Positions 18,303 through 45,860 of a stretch of 64,000 nucleotides of DNA are shown piece after piece. The stretch spans positions 1,355,501-1,419,500 of the forward strand of contig NZ_AP019797.1 in NCBI RefSeq assembly GCF_009936275.1, written 5' to 3'. Numbering within the stretch: position 1 is the stretch's first letter; each line of letters opens with the position of its first letter. The translations under genes were made by a program, and so were the position numbers. The stretch is from Rhodothermus marinus (GTDB lineage: Bacteria; Bacteroidota; Rhodothermia; Rhodothermales; Rhodothermaceae). The notes beneath the pieces were generated by a model, which saw only the letters and a program-made list of their open reading frames with translations, had not been told where the DNA came from and ran no database searches.

Positions 18303-19459
18303 AGGTGGCGATTCTCATGCCCCTGGCCGAGCAGCGCGGTGGGGCCGAGCAGCTTCTGCGCCTGTTTCTCCGCCATGCCCCCGGGGCGCCGGACGCCTGG
18401 CCACTCGTGTTTTTTGAACCCGGACCGCTGGTGGAAGAAGCGCGTGCGCTGGGCTTCCCGGCGCAGGTGATCCGGGCCGGTCGGTTGCGGCAGCCCGTCC
18501 GCTATCTGCAGACGGTCCGGCGGCTTGCGCGGTGGTTCCGGCAGGAAAGCCTTACGCTGGTGCTGAGCTGGATGGGCAAAGCGCACCTGTATGGCGGCGT
18601 GGCGGCCCGGCTGGCAGGGGTCCCGGCGGTCTGGTTTCAGCACGGGATTCCGATGCGGGATTCGTGGATGGATCGATGGATTACGCGGATGCCGGCCGCC
18701 GGCGTGCTGGCCTGTTCCGAGGCGGCCGCCGCGGCCCAGCGGCGGTTGCGTCCGGTGCGTCCGGTGGTCGTCGTCCATCCGGCGGCCGAGCTGACGGCGT
18801 TTGATCCCGATCGGCTACCTGCACCTACGGAAGCCCGCCGCCAGCTCGGGTTGCCCGAAAGCGGGCCGCTGATCGGTATGGTGGGGCGTCTGCAGCGCTG
18901 GAAGGGCATGCATACGCTCGTGCAGGCCATGCCGCATATTCTGGAGAGACACCCTGAGGCCCGGGCCGTGATCGTCGGGGGACGCCACGAGCTGGAGCCG
19001 GATTACGAACCCTGGCTGCGCAGCTTGATTACCCGGCTTGGCCTGCAGGATCGGGTCTGGCTGGCGGGGTTTCAGACGGACATCCCGTTGTGGATGCAGG
19101 CGATGGATGTGGTCGTGCATGCCTCGGACCGGGAGCCGTTCGGGATCGTGGTGGTCGAAGCCCTGGCGCTGGGCAAACCCGTGGTGGCCGGGGCCGAAGG
19201 CGGTCCGCGCGAGATCATTACCGAGGGTGTGGACGGCCTGCTGACCCCCTACGAAGACGCCGAAACGCTGGCCCGACAAATCCTGCGCTATCTGGATGAC
19301 CCGGATTTTGCCCGACGGGTAGGCGAGGCGGCCCGCCGCCGCGCCCGGGATTTCTCGCCGGAAGCGTTTGCGCGGCGGGTCACGGACGTCCTGCGAGATT
19401 TCGGGGAAATGGCCAATCGGATTGCGCCGGAGGCGCATGAAAAACGGCGTGACGGATGA
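18299..19459 (+). CDS. GT4-family glycosyltransferase
   Basis: 386 aa. Starts KVAILMPLAEQRGGAEQLLRLFL with the GGAE loop typical of GT4; LIGMVGRLQRWKGMHTLVQAM near 199-219 and the E-x7-E segment DREPFGIVVVEALALGKPVV near 281-300 (E283/E291 positions) complete a canonical donor site. A retaining enzyme using a nucleotide sugar. Its stop overlaps the most upstream ATG of the Y1 transposase gene. Confidence 0.9.
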   Translation: MKVAILMPLAEQRGGAEQLLRLFLRHAPGAPDAWPLVFFEPGPLVEEARALGFPAQVIRAGRLRQPVRYLQTVRRLARWFRQESLTLVLSWMGKAHLYGGVAARLAGVPAVWFQHGIPMRDSWMDRWITRMPAAGVLACSEAAAAAQRRLRPVRPVVVVHPAAELTAFDPDRLPAPTEARRQLGLPESGPLIGMVGRLQRWKGMHTLVQAMPHILERHPEARAVIVGGRHELEPDYEPWLRSLITRLGLQDRVWLAGFQTDIPLWMQAMDVVVHASDREPFGIVVVEALALGKPVVAGAEGGPREIITEGVDGLLTPYEDAETLARQILRYLDDPDFARRVGEAARRRARDFSPEAFARRVTDVLRDFGEMANRIAPEAHEKRRDG

Positions 19460-19515
19460 TGCGCCGGGCGGTGAATGGTTGCATTTTGCAAGATGCGATC
19501 ACGTGTCGTGACATC

Positions 19516-20100
19516 ATGGACGGGGCGCGGTATCATCGGCGATCGATTCGCCTGAAGGGATACGATTACACGCAACCCGGTGCCTATTTCGTCACCGTCG
19601 TGACGCAGGATCGGGTGTGTCTGTTCGGGGAAATTGTTGACGGACGTATGCGGTTGAACAGGCCGGGTAAAATTGTGTACGAGGAATGGTTTAGAACGGC
19701 ACGATTGCGGCCCTACGTGGAATTACGCCCGGACGAATTCATCGTCATGCCCAACCATATTCACGGCATCATTCGGATTGTGGATATAATCGATGATAAC
19801 AATGTAGGGGCACGGCGCCGCCCTGTAGGGGCACGGCGCCGCCGTGCCCCTACATCGGGGACGACGTTGGAACAATTCGGGCGCCCTGTGTCAGGATCGA
19901 TTCCCACCATCATCCGGGCGTTCAAATCGGCCACCACGCGTCGGATCAACGAATGGCGGGGTACGCCGGGTGCCCGCGTCTGGCAACGCAATTACTGGGA
20001 ACATATCGTCCGAAATGAAAAGGCCCTGGAACGTATTCGTCGATACATTGTGACCAACCCGGCCCGCTGGCAGATGGATCGTGAAAATCCCTATCGATAA
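19516..20100 (+). CDS. REP-associated tyrosine transposase (RAYT, Y1/TnpA_REP type)
   Basis: 194 aa from ATG 19516 (open to 19456). Y1_Tnp fold: RLKGYDYTQPGAYFVTVVTQDR, the HUH motif VMPNHIHGIIRI, and a C-terminal helix RNEKALERIRRYIVTNPARW with the likely nucleophile Tyr. RAYTs are single-copy, IS200-like enzymes that process REP palindromes. Between the HUH and the Tyr the gene contains two 21-bp direct repeats (19803-19823 and 19824 on) and a 14-bp inverted repeat that read in frame as VGARRRP-VGARRRR, an in-frame REP insertion. It interrupts the glycosyltransferase series but has the same strand. Confidence 0.85.
   Translation: MDGARYHRRSIRLKGYDYTQPGAYFVTVVTQDRVCLFGEIVDGRMRLNRPGKIVYEEWFRTARLRPYVELRPDEFIVMPNHIHGIIRIVDIIDDNNVGARRRPVGARRRRAPTSGTTLEQFGRPVSGSIPTIIRAFKSATTRRINEWRGTPGARVWQRNYWEHIVRNEKALERIRRYIVTNPARWQMDRENPYR
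19803..19854. repeat. REP-type palindrome inside the RAYT coding sequence
   Basis: Unit TGTAGGGGCACGGCGCCGCC occurs at 19803-19822 and again at 19824-19843 (period 21 bp, so the frame is kept). The second unit forms a perfect 14-bp inverted repeat: 19824-19837 pairs with 19841-19854, loop GCC. Related half units lie at about 10275-10340. Such palindromes are known targets of RAYT proteins in other genomes; that this RAYT acts on this palindrome is inference. Confidence 0.75.
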
Positions 20101-45825: not shown

Positions 45826-45860
45826 GTGGGCGGCGGCGGCCATGTGCCGTCGCCGCCCAC
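45826..45860 (+). other. Strong intergenic stem-loop before KDPG aldolase gene
   Basis: Arm 45826-45839 (GTGGGCGGCGGCGG) pairs with 45847-45860 (CCGTCGCCGCCCAC) with one G-U pair, loop of 7 nt. There is no T-tract, so it is more likely a transcript-processing or stabilising hairpin, or a repeat, than a classical terminator. It sits between the surface-protein stop (45812-45814) and the eda ATG at 45887. Confidence 0.55.

Follow-up and report, generated by a model that had tools for sequence, protein, structure and literature searches.

A RAYT gene in the window (the whole stretch of DNA that was analysed, 64,000 nucleotides) holds within its open reading frame a perfect REP-like palindrome, GTAGGGGCACGGCG-C-CGCCGTGCCCCTAC, preceded by a 21-bp half-copy. 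The palindrome lies in frame between the HUH motif and the catalytic tyrosine, it recurs in homologues with differing cores and in two reading frames, and the number of half-copies varies between close orthologues. We consider it quite probable that the enzyme is a TnpAREP of the subclass 2.4 kind whose gene has a “double foot” REP palindrome, carried as a passenger in the part that encodes a loop predicted to be disordered.

The transposase and its variable loop

The open frame begins at 19456; the ATG at 19516, from which the sequence-only reading had started the gene, is an internal, alternative start. Judged from translations alone, the neighbours of the gene are a glycosyltransferase-like gene on one side and a membrane-protein gene on the other. 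The following features were located:

19456–20100, forward strand: RAYT / TnpAREP-type Y1 HUH transposase open reading frame, 214 aa (Pfam, NCBIfam, Foldseek)
19756–19764, forward strand: HUH motif H101-I-H103, within PNHIH (alignment of 73 homologues)
19786–19875, forward strand: variable loop, approximately residues 111–140, linking the HUH strand to the helix after it (AlphaFold2 model)
19803–19823, forward strand: half-REP copy (left arm and part of the right arm), peptide VGARRRP; direct repeat, period 21
19824–19854, no strand assigned: complete REP-like palindrome of the “double foot” form, TGTAGGGGCACGGCG-C-CGCCGTGCCCCTACA, read as VGARRRRAPT; perfect inverted repeat
19981–19986, forward strand: WQ motif W176-Q177, invariant in the 73 homologues
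20044–20046, forward strand: catalytic tyrosine Y197, within YIVTNP, conserved in the homologue alignment

The product of 19456–20100 matched Pfam PF01797 (Y1_Tnp) with 24.2 bits, above the gathering score of 23 bits. Its score against NCBIfam NF047646 (REP_Tyr_transpos, the equivalog for REP-associated tyrosine transposase) was 63.6 bits, with the best stretch of the match covering residues 148–204 only; since this score is under the cut-off of 80, the protein is not filed under that equivalog. Only one solved structure was matched by the profile of the 73 homologues, namely 4er8, the E. coli RAYT with its REP hairpin bound, and the same entry was the top Foldseek match of the predicted model, followed by ISDra2 and IS608 TnpA. 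Throughout the 73 aligned homologues P99, N100, H101 and H103 show no variation, and Y197, I198, N201 and P202 are nearly invariant.

The AlphaFold2 model has a pLDDT above 90 except at the N-terminus and at about residues 111–140, where the values drop to about 61–65 without regular secondary structure. This segment, which carries the insert and is predicted to be disordered, is flanked by a strand at 101–108 and a helix at 149–168; H103 and Y197 are 94 residues apart. Such a location fits the earlier suggestion that the insertion is harmless because it falls in a loop. The loops of L005, L021, L052 and other homologues have been greatly lengthened by short units in tandem, for example many PVAPT repeats, indicating that the loop tolerates large length changes.

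The palindrome and its half-copy

A 21-nt unit, TGTAGGGGCACGGCGCCGCC[C/G], is present at 19803–19823 and again at 19824–19844, with a period of 21 and 20 of 21 positions identical. The second copy extends into a perfect inverted repeat (19824–19838 / 19840–19854) with 15-bp arms and a 1-nt centre. The sequence-only reading had described a tandem 21-bp unit with a period of 7 codons and a perfect 14-bp hairpin in its second copy; both are borne out, the hairpin being 14 bp when counted from GTAG and having 15-bp arms in full. Its identification of a RAYT with a REP-like palindrome (GTAG foot) is also supported, and so is its statement that the frame was kept, as the 214-aa ORF reads N-VGARRRP-VGARRRRAPT between H101-x-H103 and Y197.

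The palindrome is not due to chance: it scores 17 in the RAYT gene against a best of 9 in 20 codon-order shuffles of that gene. Apart from it, no comparable GTAG hairpin was found within 1 kb of the gene; besides the palindrome this distance holds just a 7-bp and a 10-bp imperfect GT[AG]G hairpin. Farther along the window, at 45826–45860, GTGGGCGGCGGCGGCC...GTCGCCGCCCAC forms an imperfect hairpin with 15-bp arms and a GTGG foot, which is unrelated to the RAYT gene.

Recurrence in homologues

Using peptide patterns outside the insert, 80 homologues were fetched from a set of genomes in which each species was represented once. A palindrome score of at least 10 was reached in 65 of the 80, a frequency that may be inflated by the ranking of homologues by similarity to an insert-bearing query. 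At least 64 of these palindromes are in the same loop, and in 62 homologues the best palindrome lies 9–36 residues after PNHxH; L002 and L003 have VGARRRRAPT in the loop as well, though their better palindrome sits elsewhere. The bearers span at least 14 phyla, as taken from record titles of which some may belong to contaminated bins. In about a fifth of the close homologues the loop lacks a strong palindrome. Members of this enzyme group carry such in-frame palindromes repeatedly, and the present one is not a one-off in this genome.

Accordingly, the insert is not private to this gene, as had been envisaged at first: Chloroflexota and Thermus homologues encode VGARRRRAPT by the same DNA, and in most of the others the loop holds a different palindrome. 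The sequence-only reading had conceded that an RRRP insert found in unrelated genera as ordinary protein sequence would speak against it. Sharing of the insert did turn up, yet what is conserved is a DNA palindrome and not plain protein sequence.

The reading frames make this clear. The homologue palindromes commonly share their outer part, GTAGGGGC...GCCCCTAC, and the cores vary, falling into 22 classes. The core ACGGCATGCCGT is read either as VGARHAVPL or as RGTACRAPT, the core GACCGGCCGGTC either as VGATGRSPL or as RGDRPVAPT, and another core gives VGAQRRCAPT and RGAAALRPC in the two frames. The remaining frame, in which TAG would be read, did not occur (0 of 50). Because one core gives unrelated peptides in two frames, what recurs is the palindrome as DNA and not the peptide.

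Distribution in genomes and turnover

Three perfect double-foot palindromes were detected in the 3.43 Mb of the own genome, all in or beside its three RAYT genes: the loops of this RAYT and of a second one hold one each, and the last lies a short way upstream of the third RAYT. An exact 13-mer of the palindrome occurs in this genome at two RAYT loci only. As no perfect copies were found beyond the RAYT loci in these 3.43 Mb, a dispersed REP family (many copies, mainly intergenic) was rejected for this genome, and the earlier notion of the enzyme's “own REP”, taken as such a family, did not survive the genome-wide search. The third RAYT (L082) has no loop palindrome; two half-copies and one full palindrome, with a period of 21, are located just upstream of its start (L082:1455–1530, C1:1248915–1248990). 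A further palindrome at C1:2145126–2145153, GTAAGGGCACGGC...GCCGTGCCCTTAC, is one mismatch away from the arm of the RAYT studied here.

We also compared 28 RAYT-bearing genomes, picked mostly for having few palindrome copies. In this sample 43 of 103 palindromes lie either in a RAYT or no more than 500 bp away from one, and in 15 of the 28 genomes this holds for every palindrome; some other genomes have more than 100 dispersed copies. Given that 15 of 28 genomes have no copies away from RAYTs, the in-gene palindrome needs no dispersed family in the same genome, and it need not be the by-product of a live one.

Changes of arm class and frame were counted on a tree for which the loop had been left out (65 rows, 200 shuffles). 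Arm class changed at least 32 times, with 39 changes or more in the shuffles (none of the 200 lower), and reading frame changed 14 times, the shuffled mean being 19.9 and the minimum 13. The arm classes are clustered on the tree yet change often, so that a palindrome is passed on along with its gene for some time before another takes its place. The ACGGCG arm class of this RAYT is also present in near relatives from Chloroflexota and Thermus.

A same-genus orthologue (L088, genome G042) is found at the same place with a 96% identical gene, and its loop holds three 21-bp units against two in this RAYT (+21 bp). Tandem repeats of 12–24 nt, many of them half-palindromes, were detected in 22 of the 80 homologue loops, with every period divisible by three. 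In G039 and G040, which belong to the same genus, the downstream gene is present with no RAYT at that place; neither a clean junction nor a target duplication could be recovered at these two sites, where the intergenic DNA is too diverged. No orthologue pair with and without the palindrome in otherwise identical sequence was found, and no in-gene insertion event was caught.

At the second RAYT locus of the own genome (L085, C1:1311985–1312512), both gene ends are about 98% identical to the counterpart in G042 (L109), and the middle segment with the HUH motif and the palindrome is strongly diverged, the palindrome cores being different. Judging from this alignment, the mosaic looks like recombination with another RAYT. 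The mosaic gene adjoins a restriction-type gene.

Origin and possible roles of the palindrome

The passenger reading, which we favour, would involve the following steps. A putative REP-type hairpin substrate was most probably placed in this gene, or in an ancestor of it, by TnpA-mediated single-strand transfer. The loop would tolerate any in-frame, stop-free insertion, allowing the insert to persist as a near-neutral passenger. Extra 21-bp half-copies would have arisen when replication slipped at the hairpin, with only multiples of three bases being retained; hairpin slippage together with selection for frame would explain the tandem half-copies simply. Upon transfer of the gene the palindrome would move with it, and it would sometimes be swapped by recombination between RAYTs.

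Perhaps the in-gene palindrome is instead a maintained cis element, a resident recognition hairpin linking gene and substrate, for instance by seeding the spread of REPs or by making the gene itself mobile. We regard this as unlikely, but as the strongest of the alternatives. It would suit the 15 of 28 genomes, own three palindromes included, where every perfect palindrome keeps to a RAYT or its 500-bp surroundings, and it would suit the kept 29-nt symmetry as against about 52% identity of conserved-residue codons elsewhere, a comparison that is indicative only, the pairs having been chosen for shared arms. On the other hand, the palindrome seems dispensable, being weak or absent in the loop of about a fifth of the close homologues, and in the third RAYT of the own genome it lies upstream instead; moreover, fresh insertion or RAYT-to-RAYT recombination would equally keep palindromes perfect. 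It is similarly doubtful that the palindrome is kept as a DNA element in its own right, one that serves the gene as its own recognition hairpin, travels between phyla with it, stays symmetric without dispersed copies and acts as a module that RAYT genes can exchange by recombination. If the palindrome is indeed maintained, enzyme and substrate could be read from one locus, which would help in testing TnpAREP–REP co-evolution.

A hairpin in the middle of the ORF might also lower transposase expression at the mRNA level, a self-regulation through stalling or processing. The RNA of 19780–19880 is predicted to fold strongly (−49.7 kcal/mol, z = −4.5), but any GC-rich perfect palindrome would fold likewise, the hairpin is far from the start codon and has no conserved regulatory context, and some homologues do without the palindrome; we find self-regulation of this type quite improbable. 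Still harder to defend is a selected protein motif VGAxxxxAP with the palindrome as a by-product of its codons: VGA...APT does recur in many homologues, but one palindrome is read in two frames as unrelated peptides, the arms are symmetric at silent positions and more than 20 different cores exist. The selected motif was ruled out on the reading of the same DNA in two frames. Least credible of all is a chance palindrome or an assembly artefact, in favour of which nothing speaks, as codon shuffles never attain the palindrome score and a syntenic orthologue in another genome has the same structure.

Comparison with known systems

Contrary to the first impression that REP insertions inside the enzyme are rarely described, Quentin et al. 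(2018, PMC6006769) had already named a REP in the HuH–Y interval, inserted in frame and either canonical or “double foot”, as what characterises TnpAREP subclass 2.4. The other traits of this subclass are NH[IFV]H, WQ and YIxNNP, the last within the Y---NP signature of class 2, as well as a long HuH–Y distance (median 88) in which a variable insertion separates beta3 from alphaC; in most members, REPs also occur less than 1 kb from the gene (PMC6006769). By the motifs tested, the present RAYT fits subclass 2.4 save at one position of the Tyr motif. It has NHIH at 100–103 and WQ at 176–177, a GTAG...CTAC palindrome in frame between HuH and Y, and a 94-residue HuH–Y span with a predicted disordered segment after the strand at 101–108. 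It differs in reading YIVTNP (T for N, with the Y---NP signature present), in its extra 21-bp half-copy and in having no other GTAG hairpin of like strength within 1 kb.

In-frame GTAG-tagged REPs have been listed in many other genes by Di Nocera et al. 2013 (PMC3733652), where the Rickettsia palindromic elements are cited too. Both resemble the present case as short palindromes in coding sequence, in frame, with the ORF often kept. However, the hosts in Di Nocera et al. are assorted genes, many of them of DNA replication and repair, whereas here the host is the REP transposase and the site is one recurrent loop. For the terms searched, in-gene REPs are mentioned neither in RepRanger (PMC12306157) nor in a 2021 NAR study (PMC8266576).

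The E. coli TnpAREP (4er8), which binds a GTAG REP hairpin, is the best match in fold and sequence among solved structures, yet its identity to this RAYT is 18% in structural alignment, and its chain is shorter (165 residues) with HUH and WQ closer together. REPs inside subclass 2.4 tnpAREP genes were already known, having been reported mainly as a curiosity of a flexible region. The present analysis sharpens that picture with the use of two frames, the turnover of cores with kept symmetry and the growth of half-copies in steps of three bases, and it adds that about half of the genomes sampled have the palindrome nowhere but in RAYTs or their vicinity.
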